A DNA stretch of 46,680 bases from a virus: the IMG/VR virus record IMGVR_UViG_3300020020_000583, positions 1 through 46,680 of that record. One strand, 5' to 3'. Both the position numbers and the translations under genes were made by a program. This document shows positions 1,912-26,609 of the stretch, piece by piece. Within the stretch, counting starts at the first letter, position 1; each line of letters starts with the position of its first letter. Below the pieces are notes generated by a model. That model did not search any database and was not told where the DNA came from. It worked only from the letters and a program-made list of their open reading frames with translations.

Positions 1912-2910
1912 CTAGCGCCGCCCCTTTGCCTTGGACTTCGCTGCCTCGGCGAGCGTGTCGCCGAGTGCAGCGCCGAAGGTGACGGCGAGCCGCCCCCACG
2001 GGTTGTCGTCCGACTCGCAGTCGAACGGGATGACGTTGTCCTTGCCGTACATGCCGGACTGGTTGATGCCGTCGGCGATGGCCACGGACAGGACGCGAAC
2101 GCCCCGCTCTCGTGCCTCGTTGACGGCGTTGAACACGAGCGCCGTGCCGTCGTTGGCCAGCGCCTGCTGGTCGAGCGGCAGGCTGTACCACGTGTTCGGG
2201 TCACGGTCGGCCAGCCACGAGGGCAGGCCGTCGCTGATGACGATGAGCAGCGACACCTCGTCGGAGCGCGACTCCTTGCGGAGCAGGTCGACGACGTGCT
2301 TGATGGCGTAGCCGTCACCGTTCCCGCCGTCGGCCATCTTGACCATCGACGGGATGTTCTCCGCACCACGACCTGACTCGACCACCTTGTACAGGGTGAT
2401 GTCCGCATCGCCGTGGAACTGGGCGGTGTGCAGCGTGACGCTGACCCGCACGGTGGGGATGGAGCGGAACGCCTCGGTCAGCGTGGCGCTGATGTCGGTG
2501 GCCCGCTCGATGCGGCGCTTGATGCCACGCGGCCAGTGCTTGTTGCCGATGGGCGTGTTCTTCCAGTACGCCCGGTCTGCCTCGGTGACCGGTCGGTCCG
2601 GCCAGTCCATCGACCCGGATGAGTCGACGAGCAGGTGGACGTTGACCTTGGTCGCACCCGGAGCACGGCGGTCGCGGAAGATGTCGGTCATCTGCGTGGC
2701 ATCGTTGCGCCACACGTTCCTCGGGTCGATGCGGCCCGCCGTCTGGCGGGTCTCCCAGTTACGGCGTCCGGTGCGCTGGCGCTGGAACGCCAGTCGTACC
2801 GCCTGCACCGTCCCGGCATCGACTGCCGGGACGTAGCGGAGTGGGTTCGGGTCGACCAAGCGGTCGGCCCAGTTGAGACCGTTCGCGGTCATGCCGGTGA
2901 CTCGTGCCAT
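1912..2910 (-). CDS. VWA-domain protein (CobT C-terminus / MoxR-associated type)
   Basis: This 332-residue protein has a von Willebrand factor A domain. A complete MIDAS motif (DSSGSM) lies near residue 94, followed by a conserved loop ISDG near residue 223, so it should bind a divalent metal ion and a partner protein. VWA proteins of this type work with MoxR/CobS-type AAA+ ATPases in metal chelation or in assembly and remodelling. The gene lies directly downstream of an HExxH/acidic-hinge gene and an AAA+ gene on the same strand. Together they look like a CobT split into two genes plus its ATPase. The first 80 residues are basic and unrecognised. The substrate is unknown. Confidence 0.85.
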   Translation of the reverse strand: MARVTGMTANGLNWADRLVDPNPLRYVPAVDAGTVQAVRLAFQRQRTGRRNWETRQTAGRIDPRNVWRNDATQMTDIFRDRRAPGATKVNVHLLVDSSGSMDWPDRPVTEADRAYWKNTPIGNKHWPRGIKRRIERATDISATLTEAFRSIPTVRVSVTLHTAQFHGDADITLYKVVESGRGAENIPSMVKMADGGNGDGYAIKHVVDLLRKESRSDEVSLLIVISDGLPSWLADRDPNTWYSLPLDQQALANDGTALVFNAVNEARERGVRVLSVAIADGINQSGMYGKDNVIPFDCESDDNPWGRLAVTFGAALGDTLAEAAKSKAKGRR

Positions 2911-2925
2911 GTCTGTGCCTTCCTC

Positions 2926-4503
2926 TCAGTCCTTGCGCCAGTCAGCAGCGCTGACGGCCTTCACCTTGGCGGTACCCCACAGCCCGGTCTTGACCCGGTC
3001 GATGGAGCGCTCCTTGTAGATGACCTGCGCCATCATGTGACCGACGTTGCGGTCGTAGTAGTCCTTCGAATGGTTGAGGCCGTCGACCCCCTTCTCGATG
3101 TTGCGCGAGTCGAAGTCGAGCAACTTGTCGAAGCGGTCGGGGTCGTCCGGGTCCATCGTCGGCGGCACGTCCTGCTTGGGCTTGCCGTCATCGCCGTCGG
3201 CCTCGTCGTCCTCGTCCCACCCTTCGGGCGGGGTGTCGGATGACGTGCCGTCCTTGCCCTCACCGTCGTCGGTCGGCTCGTCGCCGCCCTCGGTCTCGGT
3301 ACCCGGCTTGGTCTCGGTGCCCGGCTCGTCGCCGTCCTCGGTGTCGTCGTTACCGCCACCGGGTTCGGTCTCGTCCTCGTCGGCGTCCTCGTCCGGCTCG
3401 CCCTTGCCCCCTTCGGGGTCGGTCTCGTCGTCGTCGGCATCCTCGCCGTCGTCGCCGCCCGGGTTGGTCTCACCGTCCTCGTCCGAGTCGTCGTCGTCGA
3501 AGTCGTCCCAGTCGGGGCCGTCGTCGTCGCCCGGCTCGTCCGTGTCGTCGTCACCACCATCGGTGTCGTCGCCCGGCTCGTCGTCGGTCTCGTCGTCGTC
3601 CGCGTCCTCGTCCTCGTCGTCCTCGTCGAAGTCGGTGCCGGGATTGACCGGGGCCTCAGGCTCCGGCTCGTCGTCGACCTCGTCCTCGTCGATGTCCTCA
3701 CGCTCGGGTGAGCGCAAGCGGTCGAGACCCTCGGCGATGCTGGCGAGCATCGCATCGGTGTCACCCTCGGCGATGTCTCCGTAGGCCGTGGCCCACGATT
3801 GCCACCACGCCCGCTCGGTTCGGGTCACGGCGTCCTTGGCCCACACCGCGCACCACGGGTAGCGGGTGGCGAAGGACACGAAGTTCATCCGGTTGGTCAG
3901 CCCCTGCATGGTCTGCTCGGCGTCCCAGCGGACGTGCTTGCCGACCATGCCGGTGTTGAGCGCGACCCAGTGGAGCATCGTCGGGAACACGTCCCGGGCG
4001 ATGGGGAAGCGCTGCGCCTGACGCCGCTCCAAGCGCACGTCGTCGGCGATGTTGAGCAGGGAGTAGGCGAGCGCGTCGTAGCGCTTGCGCTGCTTCCAGC
4101 CATTGGCTGCCGTGCCCCGCTCGATGTCGCCGGGCTTGCCGTACACCGCTTCGAAGGCGGGCAGGTTCGGGAACGTGTCGAGCGTGTGCCCGACCTCGTG
4201 GAACACGAGGCCGGTCATCACCGTGCAGGCCGTGCTGATGCGGATGCTCTTGTCGAACACCGGCTTCCACGTGATGTTGATGTGCTTGGTGCCCGGCGTG
4301 GTGCTTGCGCCCACGTTCGGGTCGAGGCTCACGACGTAGCGGTCACCGGTGTTCGGGTCACGCATCACGTCAACGACCGACTGCACGGCGTCAAGCACCT
4401 CGACGAGGTGTTCACGCATGCTGTCGTCCTTCATCAGGCGGGCGACTTGCCCGCGCTTGACCCTCGCCTTGCCGAAGGTCTGGTCAAAGATGGTCAGGGA
4501 CAT
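2926..4503 (-). CDS. HExxH protein with long acidic hinge (CobT-like N-terminal part)
   Basis: This is a 525-residue protein. Residues 1-260 form an alpha-helical domain with HEVGH near residue 101 and NIADDVRLERR near residue 150; that pairing of HExxH with a downstream Asp/Glu helix is typical of zincin-like domains attached to VWA ATPase partners. Residues about 265-440 are almost pure Asp, Glu, Gly, Pro and Thr, like the acidic hinge of CobT. The last 85 residues are ordinary and probably dock the VWA or ATPase subunit. The gene lies between the AAA+ and VWA genes, with only 15 bases to the latter. Whether it cleaves protein is not known. ATG 4503 follows an exact start-associated motif. 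Confidence 0.8.
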   Translation of the reverse strand: MSLTIFDQTFGKARVKRGQVARLMKDDSMREHLVEVLDAVQSVVDVMRDPNTGDRYVVSLDPNVGASTTPGTKHINITWKPVFDKSIRISTACTVMTGLVFHEVGHTLDTFPNLPAFEAVYGKPGDIERGTAANGWKQRKRYDALAYSLLNIADDVRLERRQAQRFPIARDVFPTMLHWVALNTGMVGKHVRWDAEQTMQGLTNRMNFVSFATRYPWCAVWAKDAVTRTERAWWQSWATAYGDIAEGDTDAMLASIAEGLDRLRSPEREDIDEDEVDDEPEPEAPVNPGTDFDEDDEDEDADDDETDDEPGDDTDGGDDDTDEPGDDDGPDWDDFDDDDSDEDGETNPGGDDGEDADDDETDPEGGKGEPDEDADEDETEPGGGNDDTEDGDEPGTETKPGTETEGGDEPTDDGEGKDGTSSDTPPEGWDEDDEADGDDGKPKQDVPPTMDPDDPDRFDKLLDFDSRNIEKGVDGLNHSKDYYDRNVGHMMAQVIYKERSIDRVKTGLWGTAKVKAVSAADWRKD

Positions 4504-4513
4504 TCGGGGTGCT

Positions 4514-4524
4514 CTCCTTGGTGA
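4514..4524 (-). promoter_or_regulatory. Start-associated Shine-Dalgarno motif
   Basis: This is an exact TCACCAAGGAG on the minus strand upstream of ATG 4503. It is directly preceded by the stem-loop at 4531-4563. Confidence 0.75.
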
Positions 4525-4530
4525 AGGGGC

Positions 4531-4563
4531 AACGAGGGGCAGGCGTGCCGCCTACCCCTCGTT
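4531..4563 (-). terminator. Stem-loop between AAA+ and HExxH genes
   Basis: Arms AACGAGGGG (4531-4539) and CCCCTCGTT (4555-4563) pair perfectly, and further inner pairing is possible. The AAA+ gene's stop codon lies within the structure. There is no U-tract, so it may act as an attenuator or mRNA-stability element rather than a full terminator. Confidence 0.55.
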
Positions 4564-5907
4564 GATGGCCTCGGTGTCGACGTCGAGCAGGTCGTTGGCG
4601 ACCGGCGGGAAGTGTGAGTCGAGGATGTTGATGAGCGCCTTGCGGTCACCCGGGTCGAACTGTGCGGCGAAGCACGACAGCAGCGCTGCACGCGGGTCGG
4701 TGCCGGAGCGCACGATGCGCCGGGCCGTGTCGACCAGCATGCGGGTGCTGATGCCGACGCTCGACGGGAACTGCGACAGGTCGTCCTTGATGGCACGCTG
4801 CTGCTGGGCCAGTGCGACGAACCGCGCAGCGATGTCCGCGCCGATGCCGGTCAGGTCGACGACCACTTCGGTCTCGACCTTGGTCGGCGGGTAGTCGAGC
4901 AGGATGCCCGACGAGAAGCGCTGCGTGACCGCAGCGTCGAACGGCACGGTGCCGACGTACTCGGCACCCTTGTTGGCCGTGACCACGACGAGCATGCCCT
5001 TGGGCTTGCGCAGGGTCACGTGGGCGTCGGCCACGTAGTGCGTGCCGGTCTCGTCGAGCAGGCCGAGCGCCGCGTTGAGCGCGGCGGGAGTCTCGGACCG
5101 GTTGGCCTCGTCGAGGAGCACGACGCACTCGATGCCGTCGCGCAGGGCCGTCCCGAAGGGCGACCACTGGTAGGCCCACGTCTTCGTGTTGGGGTCCTGA
5201 CGCAGCGCGCCGAACCAGTCGTCCGCCGTGCGGATGCCGCCACCGTCCACCTTGATGAACGGCAGGCCGACCGACGCGGCGAACGCCTTGACGAGGAGCG
5301 TCTTGGCCGTGCCTGACGGCCCAGTGATGACGACCGACACGTTCTGCCCGGCGCGGACACCGGCCAGCGCATCTTCCAGCGTGGCGTGGTCCTCGACCGG
5401 GGTGACGACCGGACCGATGTGGACGTACTCGGCACCGTCGTAGCGCTTGTGCTTGACGGTGACCCTCGGGTCAGGTGCCGGGATGACCGACGACATGACC
5501 GGCTGCGGTGTGACCGCAACCTCGACGGTCGGCTCCGGCGTGACCGGGGCGACCGGGGCGACTACCGCCGGAGCGGCAGGCGCTGCGACCGTCGGGATGC
5601 TGCGCTTGACGCTGGGCTTGGCCGCACGCGGTGCGTTGGGGGCCGTGCTCACGACGCGGTACTCCTTGGTGCGCCAGTACTTCTCGACCTTCTGGGTCGA
5701 GCCGACCGCCGCCAGCCATGCGTTGACGTACGGCACGGTCAGCGAGTCGAGGTTGCGCAGGTTGACGTCCGCCGTGCCGTCGTTGCGCATGTTGGCGAGG
5801 TAGCCGACGGTCCCCTGCAGGCCGATGTAGTGCTCGGTCGCCTTGCAGTACGGCCCGTAGGGGATGACCGCACTCCCGGCCAGTGCCGGGACGTTGATGT
5901 TCGCCAC
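4552..5907 (-). CDS. AAA+ ATPase, MoxR/CobS type
   Basis: This 451-residue ATPase has Walker A GPSGTAKT near residue 196, Walker B VVLLDEAN near 261, sensor 1 TAN near 305 and an arginine finger in the sequence TQRF near 327. A sensor-2-like helix follows (STRMLVDTARR). The layout fits MoxR, CbbQ or CobS ATPases, which form hexameric rings and act on a VWA partner. An N-terminal domain of about 90 residues and a Pro/Val/Ala-rich linker precede the ATPase. The frame is open to ATG 5955, but GTG 5907 sits correctly behind an exact TCACCAAGGAG, so I start it there. It is the first gene of the AAA+/HExxH/VWA set. Confidence 0.88.
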   Translation of the reverse strand: MANINVPALAGSAVIPYGPYCKATEHYIGLQGTVGYLANMRNDGTADVNLRNLDSLTVPYVNAWLAAVGSTQKVEKYWRTKEYRVVSTAPNAPRAAKPSVKRSIPTVAAPAAPAVVAPVAPVTPEPTVEVAVTPQPVMSSVIPAPDPRVTVKHKRYDGAEYVHIGPVVTPVEDHATLEDALAGVRAGQNVSVVITGPSGTAKTLLVKAFAASVGLPFIKVDGGGIRTADDWFGALRQDPNTKTWAYQWSPFGTALRDGIECVVLLDEANRSETPAALNAALGLLDETGTHYVADAHVTLRKPKGMLVVVTANKGAEYVGTVPFDAAVTQRFSSGILLDYPPTKVETEVVVDLTGIGADIAARFVALAQQQRAIKDDLSQFPSSVGISTRMLVDTARRIVRSGTDPRAALLSCFAAQFDPGDRKALINILDSHFPPVANDLLDVDTEAINEG

Positions 5908-5916
5908 GTTGGTGCT

Positions 5917-5927
5917 CTCCTTGGTGA
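5917..5927 (-). promoter_or_regulatory. Start-associated Shine-Dalgarno motif
   Basis: An exact TCACCAAGGAG on the minus strand decides the GTG start at 5907 of the AAA+ gene in favour of the upstream ATG at 5955. Confidence 0.75.
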
Positions 5928-5960
5928 AGGGGATGTGGTGTGAATGATACGCCATTGTGG

Positions 5961-8911: not shown

Positions 8912-10996
8912 TCAGTCGATGCGGTCGACCGGGTCCGACATCACCGCATCGAGGTCGAGCAACCCCTCGGGAGTACCACCCGGCGGGTAGTACCGCGCTT
9001 CGTCCTTCGGACCCTTTCCACCACCGACCTGCTCGACCTTGCCCGCACTGCGTAGCCCGCGCAGGCGAGCGCCGACGGTGTCGCGAGCGATACCCGTCTC
9101 GCGAGCGATGATGTTGGCGGTCACCCCCGGGTAGGCGGCGACGATGGACTCGATGGTCTTGACCGCCGCCACCTGCGGTACGCCCGTCGAGAACAGTCCG
9201 GTCGTCGGGTCGTAGCCCCACGCCGACTTCCACGACGAGTCGCCGCGCGTCTCGACGAAGACCTTGCCCTCGGCAGGGAGCACCTGCGCCAGCGCGTCGT
9301 CATCGAAGTCGAGGTCGGCGACGTGCTTGTCCTTCGACCGTCGCCACGTGATGGTCGAGTCGACGGCCCCGTAGGTCGCACCGGACCCGGCCATCTCCAG
9401 CCCCGAGTCGCCCTCTGCCGACTTCCTGAGGTGATGCACCAAGACGATGGACAGCCAGCCGAACTCGTTGAGCAAGCGGCGCATCCACTGCTTGACCTCG
9501 CCCATGACCTGCGCATCGTTCTCGCTCCACTTCGCCCCAGCCGGGAAGAAGTCACGGAGCGGGTCCATCGCCATGAGCACGCGCAACGGCTTGCCGTACA
9601 ACTCGGCCAGTGGGGCGAAGCGCTCCTCGACGAGGAGCAAGCCCGAGCGCATGCGTTCGAACCCGCGCCTATCCAAGCGCACCTCCTGCAGGTACGCGGC
9701 CATGAACCGCCCTGCGGCATCGGGGTACAGCCCGGTGTACGTGGTCAGGCGCTCGCGCATCTCGTAGCGCGACCCTTCCTCGGTCACGTACACGAACACC
9801 GGGTAGGCGTCCTGCAGCGCGACCTTGCCGAGGAACGGCTGGTGCGCGGCGTAGGCGAAGCCCGCCTGCAGCAACGCCAAGGACTTCATGCTCTTGGGAT
9901 GCCCCGCCACGATGGTCAGCCCGTTGTTGACGATGAACCTATCGACGAGGTACGGGTCGAGACGGACTTCGTTGAGCAGGGCCATGAGCGTCCCGATGTC
10001 CGAGAACAGCGGACCAGCCGGTGGGGCGATGACGTCGTCGAGTTCCAGCGGGTCGACCGGGAACTTGGTGACGTCGCCGATGGCCCGGGCCACTTCCAAG
10101 CGTGGGTCCAACGGGGGCAGGTACGGCTCGCAGTTCGCTTCGTACCACGCGTACACCGCGCCGAACAGCGCCTCGCCCGTGACCCCCGTGGCCCGGTAGA
10201 TGAAGTGCGCCTTGTCGCGGATGGCATCGTGGCGCATGCCCTCGCCGACGACGGTGACTTCGGCGAGGGCGCGGTGCGCCGCCTCGCGCGCCGGGTTGGC
10301 CTCGATGGCCGCACGCGCCCACGCGATGGGCAGGCTCGCGATGTCCTCGTCGAGGAGCACCGAGTACGGGTGCTCCGAGCCGTTCGACAGCACCGACCCG
10401 GGTCCGACGACGTAGCCCTGTCCGACATCGCCGAATGGCCAGCGCGTGACGATGCGCTTGAACATCGGGCCGCGCGGGCGCGGGACGGTGTCCGGCCAGC
10501 GGTAGAACACGTGCTTGCCGTGCGGACTCTTGTGGGCGCGCGTCGGGGGCAGCGGGCCGAGCGTCGCGGTCTGGTCGGCGAGGAAGATGGGCACGTCCTT
10601 GTCGACGTCCCAACAGAAGCACCCGGGCGGCGGCAGGATGCCGTAGTTGCGCGTGCCCGGGTTGCGCAGGAAGACCGCCGGGTCGTTGTGGACGGCCTGC
10701 TCCCAGCGGTCGGTCGAGGGGGCCTTGCCCCCGGTCTTGACCGGCAGGATGGTGAAGCCCAGTGCCTGCAACGCGAGGGCTTGGGTCACGACCTCAGGGG
10801 TTCCCTCCCCTACGGGGAGGAAACCCTCTGCGGAAACCCCATCGCTGTCAGTGGGATTGTTCGGGTTTCCCCCCTCGGATGTGGGGGCAACGACGGCAGA
10901 TGTGGGGGCAACCTCGGATGTGGGAGCAAAGCGCGCGACTGCCTCGGCGTCCGAGTCCGGGTCGGGCTGGGGTTCGTCGAGGTCCCTGACCCTCAC
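8912..10996 (-). CDS. Primase-polymerase / RepA-like ATPase
   Basis: This 694-residue replication protein has three parts. The first (about 70-300) matches a bifunctional primase-polymerase domain: a KTGGKAP entry, the acidic pair in CWDVDKD near residue 128, the catalytic histidine in SPHGKHVFY near 156, and GQGYVVGPGS. The second (about 340-590) is a RecA-fold ATPase of the RepA/AAA_25 type, with Walker A GHPKSMKS near 365, an MDPLRDFF Walker B, and LVHHLRK near 518. The C-terminus is a winged helix-turn-helix, probably for DNA binding. The start is GTG 10996, overlapping the previous stop. It probably initiates replication at the adjacent iterons and relies on a host polymerase. Confidence 0.88.
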   Translation of the reverse strand: MRVRDLDEPQPDPDSDAEAVARFAPTSEVAPTSAVVAPTSEGGNPNNPTDSDGVSAEGFLPVGEGTPEVVTQALALQALGFTILPVKTGGKAPSTDRWEQAVHNDPAVFLRNPGTRNYGILPPPGCFCWDVDKDVPIFLADQTATLGPLPPTRAHKSPHGKHVFYRWPDTVPRPRGPMFKRIVTRWPFGDVGQGYVVGPGSVLSNGSEHPYSVLLDEDIASLPIAWARAAIEANPAREAAHRALAEVTVVGEGMRHDAIRDKAHFIYRATGVTGEALFGAVYAWYEANCEPYLPPLDPRLEVARAIGDVTKFPVDPLELDDVIAPPAGPLFSDIGTLMALLNEVRLDPYLVDRFIVNNGLTIVAGHPKSMKSLALLQAGFAYAAHQPFLGKVALQDAYPVFVYVTEEGSRYEMRERLTTYTGLYPDAAGRFMAAYLQEVRLDRRGFERMRSGLLLVEERFAPLAELYGKPLRVLMAMDPLRDFFPAGAKWSENDAQVMGEVKQWMRRLLNEFGWLSIVLVHHLRKSAEGDSGLEMAGSGATYGAVDSTITWRRSKDKHVADLDFDDDALAQVLPAEGKVFVETRGDSSWKSAWGYDPTTGLFSTGVPQVAAVKTIESIVAAYPGVTANIIARETGIARDTVGARLRGLRSAGKVEQVGGGKGPKDEARYYPPGGTPEGLLDLDAVMSDPVDRID
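10881..10930 (+). promoter_or_regulatory. Triple of GTGGGGGCAAC sites inside the primase gene
   Basis: There are exact copies at 10881-10891 and 10902-10912 and a variant at 10920-10930, with starts 21 and 18 bases apart. On the minus strand they encode the repeats VAPTS in a low-complexity N-terminal tail, so they may be a coding repeat, a binding site, or both. Confidence 0.4.
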
Positions 10997-18716: not shown

Positions 18717-21700
18717 GTGGCCAACTACTACACGCCGGGTAGCGGTGGTGGGAAGTACACGCCGTCCGAGGACTTCTACAACCGCAACGGGTCGTACGGC
18801 AGTGACCCCAACCCGGACCGTCCGTGGCAAGACCTCGGCAAGTCGACCATCAGCCTGCTCGGGACGCCCGCCGTCCAGCAGGACCCGGCGCTGACGGCGT
18901 TCAAGCAGCAGGCCCCGCATCCGCTCGATGCGCTGGGCATCGGCAAGGTGCCCATCCTCGGTGGCCTGCTGAAGGGCGCGACCGACATCATCAGCAAGGT
19001 CCCCAACGTCATGCCCTTCATGGCCGGGGCGCAACTCGCCCAGCGTGGGCTGGCCGCAGCGGCGTGGGAGCAAGGCAAGGGCACGCCCCAAGGGGCCGCG
19101 CTCCAGCAGCAGATTGACTCGGGCTGGGTCGGGGCGGGCGAAGCACAGGCCCAGTACCTGCGCTCGTGGTGGAAGGACAACTCGCCGCTGCCGCTGCTGG
19201 CTGACTACGTCGTGCCCCACGACACGCTCGGCGGGCAGGTCTTCCAGTCGCTGGGCGTGCTCAGTCTCGGGCAGATGGCGCTGCAGCGGACGCTGGTCCC
19301 GGGCGGTCCCCGGTTGCGCGAACTGGTCGAGGCCAGCGACGAGGTGCTGGAGAACAACCCCGACCTCATCCGCATCCGTGACGAGTACAAGGCCGGGACC
19401 CTCACCGAGGACCAGACCTACGACCAACTGTGGGAGGCGGGCTTCCTGCTGTCGAACCCGATGGGCCAAGACCTGTTCGGGCGGATGGCTTCACTCGGGC
19501 AGGAGATTGTCACCGACCCGGTCAACCTGCTGTCGGGCGGGACGGCGCTGCTCGCCCGCCAGACGACCCGGGCCGCTGCCCGGCTGGCGGCGAACCTCGC
19601 CAAGGAGGTGGGGCCGGACGCGCTGGAGCCGCTGCTGACGTCGTACGCCGCACGGACCGGACGGTCGCTCGATGCCAACCTCGGGCAGGAGTTCATCGAC
19701 GAGGTGCTGTCCAACCCGGCGACCACGCAGCAGGCGCAGCGTGCCATCAACGGACTGAGCAAGCAGCAGCGCTTCTGGGCGGGCCAGACCGGTGGGGTCA
19801 TGGGCCAGACCATCGTCAAGTACGGGCGCTACGCCGAGCGGGTGCTCGACCCGTTCACCCTGTTCGGTGGCGGCGACGCTGCTCGCGGCTCGGCCCAGAT
19901 GGTCGCGCGTGCGGCGGCAGAGGGCAGCATGGAGACGTACGGGGTCGGGACCGTGCGCGCCGCCCAGACCACCATCGCGCGTGTCGCGGGCGTGCAGGCG
20001 CGCGAGCAGTTCGACCACTTCTACGGCAGCGCCATGCAGCAGACCGTGGCGATGGTCGGGTCCGAGGGCCATGCCCAGAAGATGCTGGCGACGATGGCCT
20101 TCGATGCCGCCGACAACCCGGCTGACCTCGCCCTGCAGGCGACCCGGATGTACGGCTCGGACATCCGGCGCTACGTGCGCGACAAGGGCGAGACGGTCAT
20201 GTACCGGGTCATCCCCAAGGCGGGCGAGACGATGGAGCAGGCGATGGACGCCGCTCGCGGTCGAGCCACCCAGCAGTTGCGCACGATGCTGAACATCAGC
20301 GACACGCAGGCCCGGTCCATCATGCAGGGGCAGGGCGAGCAGTTCATCTCACTGGTCGATTACGCCCACTTCGGGCACGCCGTGCGTTCGTTCCTGCTGG
20401 CCAAGCGAGCCGCCGGCGCGACGGTCGACGAGGTCACCTTCCTCGGGCCACGGCAGTTGACCCGGCCCGAACTGAAGCGCTTCCGGCAGGCCATCAAGAA
20501 CCGGGAGGTCACGGTCGTCCGGCAGATGGTCCGGCAGTACGACCAGTTGTACTTCAACATCGCGCTGGACGGGACCGACGACTTCCTGCTGGAGCACGCC
20601 GACCTGCTGGCCAAGGGACTGGCCGACAAGGTCCCCAACGAGATTACGGGCAAGGCGCTGAAGGCTCTGCCCAAGGACATCCGCGCGTGGGTCTCGGCGA
20701 ACCCCGGGTACCGGCTGGCCTACAAGCCCAAGGACCAGTGGGGCGCGGTCATGGGCAAGGACAACCAGTTGGTCGGTATCAACCCGTGGGTCGACTGGGT
20801 CGACGAGGGGCTGGCCGTGCCGACCATCGGCAAGGTGCGCTCGCTCGTCGAGCGCAGCCTGAAGCCCATCGCCTCGTCGACCATCCAGCGCCGGGCCATG
20901 CACCGCTTCAGCCAGCGGATGGGCGAGCGCTACGGGATGAACGAGCAGTTGTCGCAGGCCATCTTCTGGTCGGTGTCGAAGCGTGCCGACATCGCGGCGG
21001 TGTCGGTCCGGGGTCTGCAGCGCAGTGACTTCTACGCGGCGGCGATGGACGTGTCCATGCCCAAGAGCCTGCGCAACAAGATGACCGAGCGGGACGTGGC
21101 CGAGGACGTCATCTGGGCGTTCGAAGGGGAACTCGGGCAGGTCGGCATCACCCAGAAGTTGACCGGCAAGGTCAAGACCAAGTTGACCCCCATCGGCAAC
21201 GCCGCTGGCGTGCTGGCCGAGCACGTGTACCCGCTCGTGCGCTTCAAGTGGAACCCGTTCTTCCAAGCGCAGGAGGTCTTCGAAACGCCCATCATCCTCG
21301 CTGGTCGCGGGGTCTGGCCGGGCGGCAGCACGAAGGTGCTCAACGCCAAGACCGCGTACGTGCGCGCGAAGTTGGCGGGCTACAACGAGTCGTTCTACCG
21401 GCAGGACCAGATTGAGTTCTCGTCGCTGGTCAACGCCAGCGGCGAGGCGATGGGTTCGGTGTTCGGCCCACAGTCGCGGCTGGGCCGGGTGCTGGCCCAG
21501 ACGACCTCGGTGCGTGGCATCAAGCGCGCCGGTGAGCAGGCCATGTTCCGCAACGAGATTGGCCGGATGATGGTCGCCGACATGCGCCGCCACTCGCCGA
21601 CGCAGTTCGCCAGCATCGCCGAGTGGAACGCGGTGCGTGGCCTGTACTCGACCATCGACGATGGCGAGACCGCCATCCACATGCTCTACGACATGTTCTC

Positions 21701-24700
21701 GCGGGCTGACCCCGATGGTGCGCTGAAGGCCGTTGACCCCACGGGCGCGCTCGGTGCGGCCAAGGTCTTCGGTGAGCACGGCCCGGCGATGTTCCGGCCA
21801 CGCCATATCGCATCGAGGCCGAGGGTCGAGACCTCGCTGGTCCGCTACATCGCGGTCGGCGAGGGCTGGCAGGACATGTCGTGGCGGGTCCTGCGGCGGA
21901 AGTTGCGCGACCCCGCCGACGCCGAGTACGACCTGATGCGCCTCGCCCAAGACCTGCACAAGGCGGGGGCCGATGCCGACTACATCGACCGGGTGGCGGC
22001 GATGGTCACCTTCCCGACGGCCAAGGAGTTCTTCGCTGAACTCAATACGATGGGCTTCCCCAAGGAACAGGTCGAGCGCATGCGCCTGTGGTCCGAGGAA
22101 CTGGCCAAGTCGCAGGGCCAGTCGCTGACCGAGTTCCTGTCACGGACGTTCGCCGACGCGCCGCAGGTCATCGACCGCCACGGCAACAACCGGGGCCGGT
22201 CGCTGTTCCAGCGCATCGTGTCGGCCCACGAGGAGCGCGGCTTCGCGGTCGTCGGGCGTGACAGCGAACTGCTCATCGACATCCAGCGGGTCGGCAACTC
22301 GTACATGCCCAAGTTCACGTTCGACCCACTGAAGCCGGTCAAGGACATGACCACGCTGGAGGTCAAGGCCCGGGAGTGGACCGGTGCTCGCGAGACCCGG
22401 GCGGTGACGCCGACCATCGGCATGCCCGACCGGTTGATGGACGCAGCGGGCCAGCCCATCACCTTCGTCAACGGCAAGTACATCAGCGGTCACTTCACCG
22501 CCAAGCAGTGGCGGGAAGCGCTGGAGGCGACGCTGTCCGAGGACGAGATTCGGGAAGCCGCCGACTGGTACGTCGACATGCGCATCGTCGTCCTCGCCCA
22601 GTACGACAACGATGTCGACGCGGCGACCCGGGCCATCCTCGGCTTTGCCCTCACCCAGAAGAACACCTCACCGGCTGGTGGGATGAACCACTTCTACGCG
22701 GCGATGGAGAAGGTCCGGCGCGGCGAGAAGTTGCCCATCGACAAGAAGTTCGACGGTCTCGGCACGGCGGAACTCCAGCGCCTGCTGGAAGACGACATGG
22801 TCACCGACGCCGGGATGGCCCAGAAGTTGACCGACTTCATCGACAGCCTGCTCGGCAACACGACCCGGACGGCGATGGTCAAGGGACCGGACGGGACGTG
22901 GATGCCTGCGGCCATCGACATCTGGGCCAAGCGCGACCTCGGCTTCCTCGACAGTGGCATCAAGCCCGAGTACTGGGCGCGCATCACGGGTGCGCAGCGT
23001 GCGGTCAAGAAGCCGCGCCTGCTGTACCGCGAACTGGAGGACGGCACCAAGGTGCCCATCCTCATCAAGGCGGGCAAGGACAAGGGCCAGCAGGCGACGA
23101 CCGATGACGTCCACCTGTACTTCGAAGACGGGACCGAGCGGGTCATCAAGGGCGATGACCTCACGAGTGAGCAGCCTGACTCGTTCCAGTACGACTACGG
23201 GGTCGAGCGCTACAACGAGATTGCCGAGTACCTGAACACCGAGAAGTACCTGACCCGCGAGAACTGGACGGCGGCGGACGTGCAGGCGATGGGCTGGTTC
23301 CGGGCCAAGGTCGCTTTCGGTGACAGCACCGGGTCGCCGCTCGACGCGTTCTTCCGCAACCACTACAACGTGACCTTCGAAGCCACGCCCGCGCCCGGCA
23401 CCCGGTACGCCGACCTGTATCCGGGCCTCGCCGACGACGGGCGGGTGCCCATCACCGAGGCGCAGGCGGCGTCCATCACGTCGGACGTGATGGAGGTCTC
23501 GGTCGCCGAGGCGGCGAGCATCGCGGGCGTACAGGTGCTGACCAAGCACGCGACGACGGGGACGTGGGCCGATGCCTCCGGTGTGGCCAACGTCACGCCC
23601 CACGTGACGGTCGAGATTCTGGGGACCGATGACGGCCTCCGGCGGTTCATGGCTGCCATCGGGGAGTTGAACCAGCAGCCGCGCGTGCGGGCAACCAAGA
23701 CGGTGGCCATCAAGACCAATCCGACCAAGGACAACGGGATGCGTTGGGCCATCGACTACCCGCTGCCCACGGGCATCAGCAAGCACGAGGCCAACGAGAT
23801 TCACCGGGAACTCATCAGCCACGACGACGTCATCGCGGGCGGGTCGGTGCTCGTGCGCTACGACGACGGAACGTACGTGGTGCGCTCGGTGTGGGAACCC
23901 GAGGAGGGCGTCGAGTACTGGCAGCGGTCGAAGTTCGAAGACGAGGTCCGCATCGAGAACCGGGCCTCGTTCGAATGGCGCGGTCGGATGTACGACTACG
24001 ACGAGGACGGCTACCGGCGTGGGCGCTACGTCTCGCAGGAGGAACTGGACGGCGCGCGTGCGCGAGGCGAGGCGCTGGTCGCGGCGATGGAGCAGGAGCC
24101 GGTCCTGCGGCTCGACAGCCGTGGACCGATGGGCGCGGACATCGAGGACGTACCCGAAGACTTCGCGCCCGACGCGACGCCGCTGCACTACGAGCCGATG
24201 GGCGAGCCGGGCGTCTCGTACAGCGTCGACAACTACAACGAGCGCGACGTGCTGGTCATCTACCGGGACAACGAGGGCAAGCCCGTCGGGTACGTGCGCA
24301 TGGACTCGGGTAACAAGGACGTGCCGATGCGCTGGAACGATGCGGCCCGTCGGCCCATCGTCCCGGGCGCGGTCCGTGGTCCCATCCATGTGTACGTGGA
24401 GCCGGATGTTCGGCGCACGGGCGTCGCCACCGCGCTGTACGACTGGGTCGAGAAGCAGGGCTGGGACCTGTCGGAGTCGAGCGGCAAGACGGTGACCGCC
24501 GCTGGGCGGGCGTTCACCAGCGCTCGGTACGACCGGCTTGCCCCCACCGGCTTGGTCCCACTGACCGACGAACTGGTCACCGACATCGCCAACCGTGTAC
24601 GGGCTGCGAAGTGGAGCGGCGCTTCGGTCGACTTGCGGACGGGCGAGTTCCTGCCCAAGGGCAAGCCCCGGCAGGGTCCGTTCGTGACGGCCATCGGTGA

Positions 24701-26609
24701 CACCAAGTCGGTGGCGTTCCAGAACGTGACCGAGGCCAAGTTCCGAACAGCGCTGACCGAGTTCATCGAGGAGAACCGGGAGGAACTGTCGAAGCCCGGG
24801 CGCTACCTCGGCGTGTTCCGCGACGAGCAGGCGGGCCGCTTCGACTTCGACATCAACTACGCGACGTGGGACGAAGACGATGCCGAGGCGTTCCAGTTGG
24901 TCTTCGGTCGGGAGGGTGGGGCCTACGACACGTACAGCGGGAACGGCGTGTACGCTCCGGTCCTGCGCGACGAGGCCAAGGTCCCGGCCCGCACCGAGCC
25001 GACGTTCATCCGGCCCGTCAGGGCCAAGGTCTACTACCACCGTATCGAGGAGGCCGACTATGCCACGGAGGTACGGGGAGCCGGTCGAAGGGGAGCCGTC
25101 CCCAACGCACGTACAGACCGGCTGGTCGGTGACGGGAAGCGTCGGACCGGGGAGGCGGTCGAGCGAGCGTACGGCGATTACGCAGGGTATGAGACCCAAG
25201 CCTTCCGGTCCGAGCGTGTCGCCGCAGGAGATGAGCGGTATGCCGCCGGAGTTGATTCCCTCCCCGACCTCGGTGGGCCAGCCGGAGCCACTTCTGCCCG
25301 GCTATTCCAACGCGCTCCCCGAGGGTACCGTGCAGCCGTCCGGTTCGACACCGCCCTCCCCGACATCGGTACCCGGGGAGGTCGCTCCACCCTCTACTTC
25401 AAGCCCGGTCGAAGTGCCCGCGATACCCTCGTCCACGAGTTCGCCCACGCCTTCTCCGAGCACCTCGACGATAGCGCCAAGCGGCTCTACCTTGCCTCCT
25501 ACAACCGAAGGTACGGTCGAGCCGCTGTAGGTGCGCCGCAGCCCAAGAACGGGGCCAAGCGAGCGCAGAACAAGAACTCGTGGGACGAAGATGTCCACGA
25601 GCAGTTCGCGACCGACACCATCGAGTACTTCCGTACGGGCCAGCCGGTGCAGGCCGAACTGCAGCCCATCTTCGACTTCTACGGCAAGTACCTGCGCGCC
25701 AGCCGCAACCGACCCGGCCTCGACCCGAAGGCCCAGCAGGAACTGGCCCAGTTGGTCGGCACCAACCAGTACAAGGGCGGGCTGGCGTACAGCGCGGGCG
25801 AGCAGGCGCTCGTCGACCTCGCCTTCGGCACCAGTCGTCGGGCCGAGCGGACGACCAACGACACCGTGTACTTCAAGGGCGAGCGGTCGTGGGCCGAACG
25901 GTCGGTCAACCACCCGTTCTTCGGGCTGTACCCGGCGTCGTACATGTGGGGCAAGGTGCTCCCCGAACTCGTCGAGTTCCTCACCTTCCGCCCGTTCGGG
26001 TTGAAGGCACCGTTCGTCGCCCTGCACAACGTCAATCAGGTCTACCAGTCGGTGATGACCCAGCAGGAGAACGACCCCGAACTGCGCAAGTGGCTGGACG
26101 ACAACGAGGAGTACCTGCGGGCCATCTCGATGATGACCCCGGGCCTGCCGTGGGACATCCCGGTCAACGCACCGCTCGGCGTGCGCCGTCTGGTCGAGGC
26201 GCTGGAGGAGAACTACTACCGGGAGATGACCGGGCAGGAGTTCGACACCATGCCCGAGTTGATGCAGCGCTACCTCGGCAAGACCATCCCCGACATCATG
26301 GGCTACCAGTTCGGTCCGGCGATGGGCGTCGAGAGTCTGGTCGAGACGGGGTCCGGCGTCATCGGCTTGGGGTCACAGGCGCTCGGGGCCGGGTTCAACG
26401 CCGTCGTGCCGAAGCCGACCGAGGACCCGGGCTTCTTCCCCGAGGCCGACTCGCCCGCAACCCCGGGTCTCGGCGACTTGCGCGGTCTGCGGACCACGCC
26501 GCGCACGCTGGAGCAGGCGGTGGCGCAAGGTGAGCAGACGCTGGTCGAAGGGTTGGACGTTGATGCGTTGACCGAGGAGATTACGCAGGAGTTGTACGCC
26601 ACCGATTGA
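18717..26609 (+). CDS. Giant virion protein with GNAT-like and zincin-like domains
   Basis: At 2630 residues this is the largest gene, starting at GTG 18717. The first 1100 residues are helical with many Arg, Gln and Met and look like an ejected virion protein. Residues about 1820-1945 hold a GNAT acetyltransferase-like domain with motif A as VYVEPDVRRTGVATALYDWV. Around 1970-2090 is a compact domain with KPGRYLGVFRDE. A zincin motif HEFAHAFSEHL begins near 2240 and HEQFATD near 2294. The last 300 residues are conserved-looking and membrane-neutral. It may cleave or modify host proteins during entry. Codon use falls away between 25060 and 25530, where a second frame is open. Confidence 0.8.
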   Translation: MANYYTPGSGGGKYTPSEDFYNRNGSYGSDPNPDRPWQDLGKSTISLLGTPAVQQDPALTAFKQQAPHPLDALGIGKVPILGGLLKGATDIISKVPNVMPFMAGAQLAQRGLAAAAWEQGKGTPQGAALQQQIDSGWVGAGEAQAQYLRSWWKDNSPLPLLADYVVPHDTLGGQVFQSLGVLSLGQMALQRTLVPGGPRLRELVEASDEVLENNPDLIRIRDEYKAGTLTEDQTYDQLWEAGFLLSNPMGQDLFGRMASLGQEIVTDPVNLLSGGTALLARQTTRAAARLAANLAKEVGPDALEPLLTSYAARTGRSLDANLGQEFIDEVLSNPATTQQAQRAINGLSKQQRFWAGQTGGVMGQTIVKYGRYAERVLDPFTLFGGGDAARGSAQMVARAAAEGSMETYGVGTVRAAQTTIARVAGVQAREQFDHFYGSAMQQTVAMVGSEGHAQKMLATMAFDAADNPADLALQATRMYGSDIRRYVRDKGETVMYRVIPKAGETMEQAMDAARGRATQQLRTMLNISDTQARSIMQGQGEQFISLVDYAHFGHAVRSFLLAKRAAGATVDEVTFLGPRQLTRPELKRFRQAIKNREVTVVRQMVRQYDQLYFNIALDGTDDFLLEHADLLAKGLADKVPNEITGKALKALPKDIRAWVSANPGYRLAYKPKDQWGAVMGKDNQLVGINPWVDWVDEGLAVPTIGKVRSLVERSLKPIASSTIQRRAMHRFSQRMGERYGMNEQLSQAIFWSVSKRADIAAVSVRGLQRSDFYAAAMDVSMPKSLRNKMTERDVAEDVIWAFEGELGQVGITQKLTGKVKTKLTPIGNAAGVLAEHVYPLVRFKWNPFFQAQEVFETPIILAGRGVWPGGSTKVLNAKTAYVRAKLAGYNESFYRQDQIEFSSLVNASGEAMGSVFGPQSRLGRVLAQTTSVRGIKRAGEQAMFRNEIGRMMVADMRRHSPTQFASIAEWNAVRGLYSTIDDGETAIHMLYDMFSRADPDGALKAVDPTGALGAAKVFGEHGPAMFRPRHIASRPRVETSLVRYIAVGEGWQDMSWRVLRRKLRDPADAEYDLMRLAQDLHKAGADADYIDRVAAMVTFPTAKEFFAELNTMGFPKEQVERMRLWSEELAKSQGQSLTEFLSRTFADAPQVIDRHGNNRGRSLFQRIVSAHEERGFAVVGRDSELLIDIQRVGNSYMPKFTFDPLKPVKDMTTLEVKAREWTGARETRAVTPTIGMPDRLMDAAGQPITFVNGKYISGHFTAKQWREALEATLSEDEIREAADWYVDMRIVVLAQYDNDVDAATRAILGFALTQKNTSPAGGMNHFYAAMEKVRRGEKLPIDKKFDGLGTAELQRLLEDDMVTDAGMAQKLTDFIDSLLGNTTRTAMVKGPDGTWMPAAIDIWAKRDLGFLDSGIKPEYWARITGAQRAVKKPRLLYRELEDGTKVPILIKAGKDKGQQATTDDVHLYFEDGTERVIKGDDLTSEQPDSFQYDYGVERYNEIAEYLNTEKYLTRENWTAADVQAMGWFRAKVAFGDSTGSPLDAFFRNHYNVTFEATPAPGTRYADLYPGLADDGRVPITEAQAASITSDVMEVSVAEAASIAGVQVLTKHATTGTWADASGVANVTPHVTVEILGTDDGLRRFMAAIGELNQQPRVRATKTVAIKTNPTKDNGMRWAIDYPLPTGISKHEANEIHRELISHDDVIAGGSVLVRYDDGTYVVRSVWEPEEGVEYWQRSKFEDEVRIENRASFEWRGRMYDYDEDGYRRGRYVSQEELDGARARGEALVAAMEQEPVLRLDSRGPMGADIEDVPEDFAPDATPLHYEPMGEPGVSYSVDNYNERDVLVIYRDNEGKPVGYVRMDSGNKDVPMRWNDAARRPIVPGAVRGPIHVYVEPDVRRTGVATALYDWVEKQGWDLSESSGKTVTAAGRAFTSARYDRLAPTGLVPLTDELVTDIANRVRAAKWSGASVDLRTGEFLPKGKPRQGPFVTAIGDTKSVAFQNVTEAKFRTALTEFIEENREELSKPGRYLGVFRDEQAGRFDFDINYATWDEDDAEAFQLVFGREGGAYDTYSGNGVYAPVLRDEAKVPARTEPTFIRPVRAKVYYHRIEEADYATEVRGAGRRGAVPNARTDRLVGDGKRRTGEAVERAYGDYAGYETQAFRSERVAAGDERYAAGVDSLPDLGGPAGATSARLFQRAPRGYRAAVRFDTALPDIGTRGGRSTLYFKPGRSARDTLVHEFAHAFSEHLDDSAKRLYLASYNRRYGRAAVGAPQPKNGAKRAQNKNSWDEDVHEQFATDTIEYFRTGQPVQAELQPIFDFYGKYLRASRNRPGLDPKAQQELAQLVGTNQYKGGLAYSAGEQALVDLAFGTSRRAERTTNDTVYFKGERSWAERSVNHPFFGLYPASYMWGKVLPELVEFLTFRPFGLKAPFVALHNVNQVYQSVMTQQENDPELRKWLDDNEEYLRAISMMTPGLPWDIPVNAPLGVRRLVEALEENYYREMTGQEFDTMPELMQRYLGKTIPDIMGYQFGPAMGVESLVETGSGVIGLGSQALGAGFNAVVPKPTEDPGFFPEADSPATPGLGDLRGLRTTPRTLEQAVAQGEQTLVEGLDVDALTEEITQELYATD
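25060..25530 (+). CDS. Possible overprinted gene in the +1 frame of the giant gene
   Basis: ATG 25060 lies six bases after GAGGAGG and opens a 156-codon frame fully inside the giant gene. The product is rich in Pro, Ser, Thr and Glu (for example PSPTSVGQPEPLLPG) and has no Arg in its last hundred or so residues, unlike typical shadow frames here. Between about 25240 and 25380 third-position GC is higher in this frame than in the main frame, which locally uses rare codons such as CGA, GGA, GTA and GCA. This fits dual coding, though a recently acquired segment could also explain it. Its function is unknown and there is no signal peptide. Confidence 0.45.
   Translation: MPRRYGEPVEGEPSPTHVQTGWSVTGSVGPGRRSSERTAITQGMRPKPSGPSVSPQEMSGMPPELIPSPTSVGQPEPLLPGYSNALPEGTVQPSGSTPPSPTSVPGEVAPPSTSSPVEVPAIPSSTSSPTPSPSTSTIAPSGSTLPPTTEGTVEPL

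Follow-up and report, generated by a model that had tools for sequence, protein, structure and literature searches.

A split phage gene set of the CobS/CobT-like family encoding an AAA+ ATPase, an HExxH/acidic-linker protein and a VWA protein

Described relatives and layout of the locus

Partnerships between a MoxR-type AAA+ ring and a VWA protein are represented in cells by NorQ–NorD, CbbQ–CbbO and RavA–ViaA, and in cellular CobS–CobT the AAA+ partner acts with a protein that joins an acidic linker to a CobT-type VWA domain with an N-x-DG variant of the MIDAS. To our knowledge, a metallopeptidase domain is known in none of the partners NorD, CbbO and ViaA. In phages, a MoxR AAA+ ATPase together with a metallopeptidase-vWA protein was described in the group 2.2 jumbo phages by Iyer et al. 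2021 (PMC7824862), and a phage cobST cluster, including the split cobT of HHTV-2, was described by Liu et al. 2021 (PMC8651126).

The DNA analysed here, a virus record from IMG/VR, has 46,680 bases and 67% G+C; it is referred to in its full length as the window and carries terminase, portal and major capsid genes. Three adjacent ORFs for an AAA+, an HEVGH and a VWA protein (genes 1–3) lie on its minus strand at 5955/5907–4552, 4503–2926 and 2910–1912. They belong to the phage CobS/CobT-like family already described, in which metallopeptidase and VWA usually form a single protein, and represent its less common split form of three genes, with a phrog_249-type AAA+ ATPase, an N-terminal HExxH domain and, adjacent to the AAA+ gene, a VWA protein with a CobT-type MIDAS. 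An initial annotation of this DNA had proposed three adjacent co-directional genes related to CobS–CobT and MoxR–VWA pairs, and both points are borne out, the latter by the phrog_249 (CobS) and CbbQ_C matches of the ATPase and by the alignment of the VWA protein with CobT C-termini. Its novelty was overestimated, as the jumbo-phage pair and the phage cobST cluster with the HHTV-2 split had already been published. The features of the locus are as follows.

4552–5955, minus strand: AAA+ ATPase of the MoxR/CobS/CbbQ-NorQ type (Pfam, phrog_249, orthologues in five related phages)
5299–5322, minus strand: Walker A, GPSGTAKT (sequence)
5101–5124, minus strand: Walker B, VVLLDEAN (sequence)
2926–4503, minus strand: 525-aa protein with HExxH domain (residues 1–261), acidic linker (266–465) and conserved C-terminal tail (466–525)
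4186–4200, minus strand: predicted zinc-site motif HEVGH, residues 102–106 (conservation)
4027–4053, minus strand: NIADDVRLE, residues 151–159, probable third-ligand helix (motif alignment; model helix 144–165)
3109–3708, minus strand: acidic linker, residues 266–465, 51% Asp+Glu (composition)
2926–3108, minus strand: C-terminal tail of the 525-aa protein, kept in split relatives, a putative docking segment (alignment)
2911–2928, minus strand: in-frame junction of genes 2 and 3, TGA and 15-nt spacer with Shine-Dalgarno AGAGGAAGG
1912–2910, minus strand: VWA protein of 332 aa with a pre-VWA GR[IL]D segment (profile match)
2608–2625, minus strand: first MIDAS motif, DSSGSM (sequence)
2218–2238, minus strand: last MIDAS motif, ISDGLPS (sequence)

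The window is probably a near-full genome, since four related phage records (G002, G003, G004 and G009) measure 45.2–47.0 kb; these appear to be cut at different points. A 21-base leader, CCCTTCACCAAGGAGAGCACC, containing a Shine-Dalgarno sequence stands just 5' of start codons at 676–696, 4508–4528 and 5911–5931 (minus strand). One of the three copies has one mismatch, none is expected in shuffles, and genes 1 and 2 are each preceded by a copy. Elsewhere, a 2630-aa open frame (18717–26609, plus strand) stands between the portal gene and that for the major capsid protein. Its sole annotation is a weak acetyltransferase-like stretch near residues 1837–1915, and its product could be a large virion protein, internal or ejected.

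The closest described systems each match this arrangement in part. The group 2.2 jumbo phages (PMC7824862) pair the same three functional domains in the same way, also from adjacent genes, but there the metallopeptidase and vWA domains are fused, whereas the window phage, of about 47 kb, encodes them in two genes. The haloarchaeal virus HHTV-2 likewise has CobS-like and CobT-like genes and is split at the same place, with gp2 comprising HEVQH...NVLEDNHID and an acidic tail, and gp3 the VWA; its AAA+ gene is, however, six genes away, where all three are contiguous in the window, and the sequences are very distant. The ‘peptidase’ of Prochlorococcus phage Syn1 (phrog_459) also has HEVGH...NITEDARVE followed by a VWA and is encoded beside cobS, but it is a fused protein of 711 aa and its gene precedes cobS. 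Among the cellular systems, CobS–CobT shares the AAA+ partner, the acidic linker and the CobT-type VWA; unlike the window proteins, CobT is a single chain lacking HExxH (0/15), and its partner CobN is absent from the window. NorQ–NorD, CbbQ–CbbO and RavA–ViaA share the ring and its VWA partner, and the window ATPase carries CbbQ_C.

A zincin-like domain, its motor and its VWA partner

The AAA+ gene encodes 467 aa from ATG 5955 or 451 aa from GTG 5907; the latter, preceded by AAGGAG, appears the likelier start. As the initial annotation had stated, all core motifs of an AAA+ ATPase are present: Walker A and Walker B as listed above, sensor-1 in VVTANKG and the arginine in VTQRF. Pfam matches AAA_5 in the core (3e-10) and CbbQ_C, the C-terminal domain of CbbQ/NorQ (2e-9), the best phage family is phrog_249 (CobS; E 3.6e-28), and the orthologues in five related phages are 47–52% identical.

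The second protein, correctly described earlier as a 525-residue chain with HEVGH and a long acidic hinge, has HEVGH at residues 102–106 and NIADDVRLE at 151–159, followed by the 200-residue linker and a conserved tail of about 60 aa. A Pfam search of this protein returned zero matches. A profile built from nine phage N-domains, none from the window, nevertheless picked its ORF alone among the 443 window ORFs (E 8e-7; next 6.8) and scored 25.2 bits against a best of 4.1 in 1000 shuffles of the domain, so that a chance match is not a plausible explanation. In profile–profile comparison, the N-domains of the window group matched other phage N-domains at 97–98% probability (E down to 8e-13). HE[VI]GH is kept in all six relatives described below, and NIADDVRLE aligns with the N-x-[LT]-E-D-x-R-x-E motif of fused homologues.

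An AlphaFold2 model of residues 1–261, computed from 37 window and IMG/VR sequences, reached pLDDT 87.6 and pTM 0.84. It places strands at 57–61, 66–68 and 74–78, HEVGH on a helix spanning 89–121, and a further helix at 144–165. In the model, this corresponds to the zincin layout of an active-site helix with HExxH and a downstream ligand helix behind a beta-sheet. When the model was compared with 350,542 PDB chains by Foldseek, the top six matches were zincins (selecase, jannalysin, abylysin, ArdC), with E values of 0.6–1; the E values against solved zincins overall were 0.25–1, not significant alone. The fused family, modelled separately (pLDDT 92.2), matched abylysin with probability 0.97, followed by selecase and M1 aminopeptidases, and the top BFVD matches of the window N-domain model were mostly phage VWFA/CobT proteins, with HHTV-2 gp2 at rank 3. 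Because the PDB, fused-family and BFVD fold matches agree with the invariant HExxH, the modelling supports a zincin-like metallopeptidase domain, and the proposed zincin or CobT relation of this protein was not refuted by the structural search. The third zinc ligand probably lies in NIADDVRLE, with D154, D155 and E159 as candidates.

DUF2201, a bacterial metallopeptidase-VWA protein encoded next to MoxR, was also considered. The window gave no match to PF13203 (DUF2201); the motif of DUF2201_N lines up with the phage N-domain, but the hhalign score of 20.7, obtained with two sequences only, falls within column shuffles of up to 21.7.

Gene 3 is the only gene picked by a VWA profile in the window (E 3.6e-9). 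Its MIDAS had been called intact, which is accurate in the CobT sense, DSSGSM and ISDG being present, but not in the textbook sense, as the threonine position reads GGNGDG; cellular CobT, with NIDGEA at that position, likewise lacks the textbook form. The VWA domains of the window group match cellular CobT C-termini at 94.6% probability (E 6.9e-8) and the VWAs of fused phage proteins at 98.7% (E 1.9e-16).

Split, fusion and conservation among phages

Genes 2 and 3 share a reading frame and are separated by TGA and 15 nt, in which the Shine-Dalgarno AGAGGAAGG stands 7 nt before the ATG. Both readthrough of this in-frame stop and a sequencing error were considered as explanations and rejected: the Shine-Dalgarno fills the gap, relatives are split too, and in three of them (G002, G003 and G004) the two genes are in different frames. 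The split is thus genuine.

The relatives were found via the major capsid protein, which gave 18 related contigs, and 15 records were searched for the cassette. The AAA+, HExxH and VWA genes are carried by six of the 15, always adjacent and in the same order; the related records without the cassette are shorter, linear and may be fragments. The initial annotation had named separate occurrence of the genes in related phages as counting against it. Wherever any of the genes was found (6/6), the three-gene order was present, so separate occurrence is not what is seen. Five of the six relatives are split like the window, and the sixth (G014) is a natural fusion, with a single 815-aa frame (L141) that contains HEVGH and DASGSM and is homologous to window genes 2 and 3. 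Together with the alignment of the VWA protein to cellular CobT C-termini, this fusion upholds the earlier description of a CobT cut into two genes.

Zero matches came from a DNA-level search of phage records with the window, from tblastn searches using genes 2 and 3, and from scanning viral contigs with each of the proteins of genes 1–3; the scan with the major capsid protein did match. The failed DNA-level and tblastn searches are a sign only of the strong divergence of the window phage. In phages with a detectable CobS relative, its neighbour is a protein of 580–711 aa with HExxH, E-D-x-R-x-E, an acidic or polar linker and a VWA in one chain, as in Gordonia phage Chidiebere, Bacteroides phage BS162P1 and cyanophage Syn1 (‘peptidase’). 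A scan of IMG/VR, seeded by patterns around [ND]GLNYHE or LEDQRIE, yielded 80 fused homologues; each sampled locus was selected by at least one motif, and both were not required. HExxH is present in 80/80 and N-x-x-E-D-x-R-x-[ED] in 78/80, and the AAA+ gene is directly upstream in 78/80, the remaining two standing at contig ends.

The initial annotation had CobT ‘given’ a zincin-like N-terminus, and here the direction was wrong. As all 80 homologues, the cyanophage ‘peptidase’ and HHTV-2 carry the HExxH domain, phage CobT-like proteins normally begin with it, and it is a feature inherited from the ancestor of the phage family rather than an addition to CobT. The N-domain of Pfam CobT (PF06213) found no match in the window. 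Compared directly, the phage and cellular CobT N-domains align collinearly over 153 columns (E 0.007, prob 5.5), with LEDQRIE on EQARVE, and the score of 25.5 exceeds those of all 60 column-shuffled controls (best 18.3) and of the reversed profile (13.5), which is only suggestive of a relation between the two sequence families and weaker than the match of the VWA domains. Most cellular CobT N-domains examined (L153–L167) read H-D-x-x-x-H and E-Q-A-R-x-E; HExxH occurs in 0/15. By these alignments, cellular CobT probably keeps a degenerate metallopeptidase domain that lacks HExxH, the direction of change being inferred.

Proposed function and alternatives

In the window and its relatives, the cassette sits in a prim-pol module, and the structural genes for terminase, portal and major capsid protein occupy the other strand. 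A Prim-Pol + AAA_25 replication protein (8912–10996, minus strand) is encoded upstream on the same strand as the cassette. We consider it probable that the three genes encode a split MoxR-type AAA+/metallopeptidase-linker-VWA machine that remodels or cleaves a target early or mid infection. The domain identities, gene order, natural fusion, conserved HExxH and zincin-like model make up the established part of this explanation. In structures of NorQD (PMC13036017), the ring binds the VWA through a finger as well as the C-terminus, and it stretches the linker leading to the N-domain. By analogy with the docking of NorD by NorQ, the AAA+ ring (hexameric in relatives) would dock the VWA protein via the pre-VWA segment and the C-terminus of the latter. 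ATP hydrolysis would turn the VWA. The resulting pull would pass along the acidic linker and conserved tail of the 525-aa protein to a target that the N-terminal zinc domain holds, and this domain might then clip or open a specific host or phage protein. NorQD requires a covalent linker between N-domain and VWA (PMC13036017), whereas the split form has no such bond between linker and VWA; the conserved tail of about 60 aa of gene 2 may dock to the VWA in its place. Expression of the cassette alongside the replication module points to a role early or midway in infection, in host takeover or DNA metabolism, rather than in capsid maturation or cobalt insertion.

Three views of such systems have been published: virion assembly with proteolysis (PMC7824862), cobalamin production together with the CobN of the host (PMC8651126) and a chaperone of general function (PMC7911831). 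Known MoxR–VWA pairs work without a peptidase (PMC13036017), and a non-proteolytic chaperone, in which the HExxH domain binds zinc or the target without cleavage and the machine remodels or inserts metal like NorQD, CbbQO and RavA–ViaA, would follow their example. The catalytic glutamate of HExxH is, however, strictly kept in the 80 fused homologues and six relatives, which would be surprising without catalysis, and we regard this chaperone as rather unlikely. It draws some further support from the fact that some zincin-fold proteins are non-catalytic.

Iyer et al. 2021, who described this domain set in group 2.2 jumbo phages, proposed that the AAA+/VWA chaperone aids assembly and the metallopeptidase processes structural proteins (PMC7824862); in addition, a MoxR–VWA pair of Acidianus two-tailed virus acts in tail development, as cited in PMC7824862 and PMC7911831. 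The position of the cassette in the prim-pol module, opposite to the terminase, portal and capsid genes, speaks against such virion maturation, as does the location of the cyanophage, Gordonia and Bacteroides versions, which adjoin replication genes. Moreover, the neighbours of 31 sampled fused loci include HNH, endonuclease VII and WhiB, and no head or tail family is named among the 25 listed. A maturation role is therefore judged unlikely here.

That the AAA+ and CobT-like proteins assist host CobN as a cobaltochelatase and raise cobalamin, as proposed by Liu et al. 2021 (PMC8651126), agrees with the sequence relation to CobS/CobT but is quite improbable, as CobN was found in none of 38 phage records (the window and 37 others), every sampled phage form retains HExxH and 15/15 cellular CobT lack it, and the ribonucleotide reductase large subunit was not found in the window group. 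The earlier preference for a role other than metal chelation accordingly stands as far as phage-encoded CobN is concerned, while use of host CobN stays compatible with the data.

The split/remodelling machine favoured above bears on a gene pair that is widespread in cyanophages and in haloarchaeal, Gordonia and Bacteroides phages, where it is labelled vitamin B12 synthesis or peptidase; taken with the zincin-like model, the invariance of HExxH and the occurrence of natural split and fused forms point to a powered protease or remodeller. The split form, in which the peptidase part and the motor-binding part are on separate proteins, is convenient for reconstitution. A further proposal from the sequence comparisons, which we hold only tentatively, is that the CobT proteins of phages are genuine zinc proteases driven by ATP and that cellular CobT descends from such a machine, its N-domain having lost HExxH. 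If so, the published remark that cobT was ‘mistakenly annotated as a peptidase’ would have the matter backwards.
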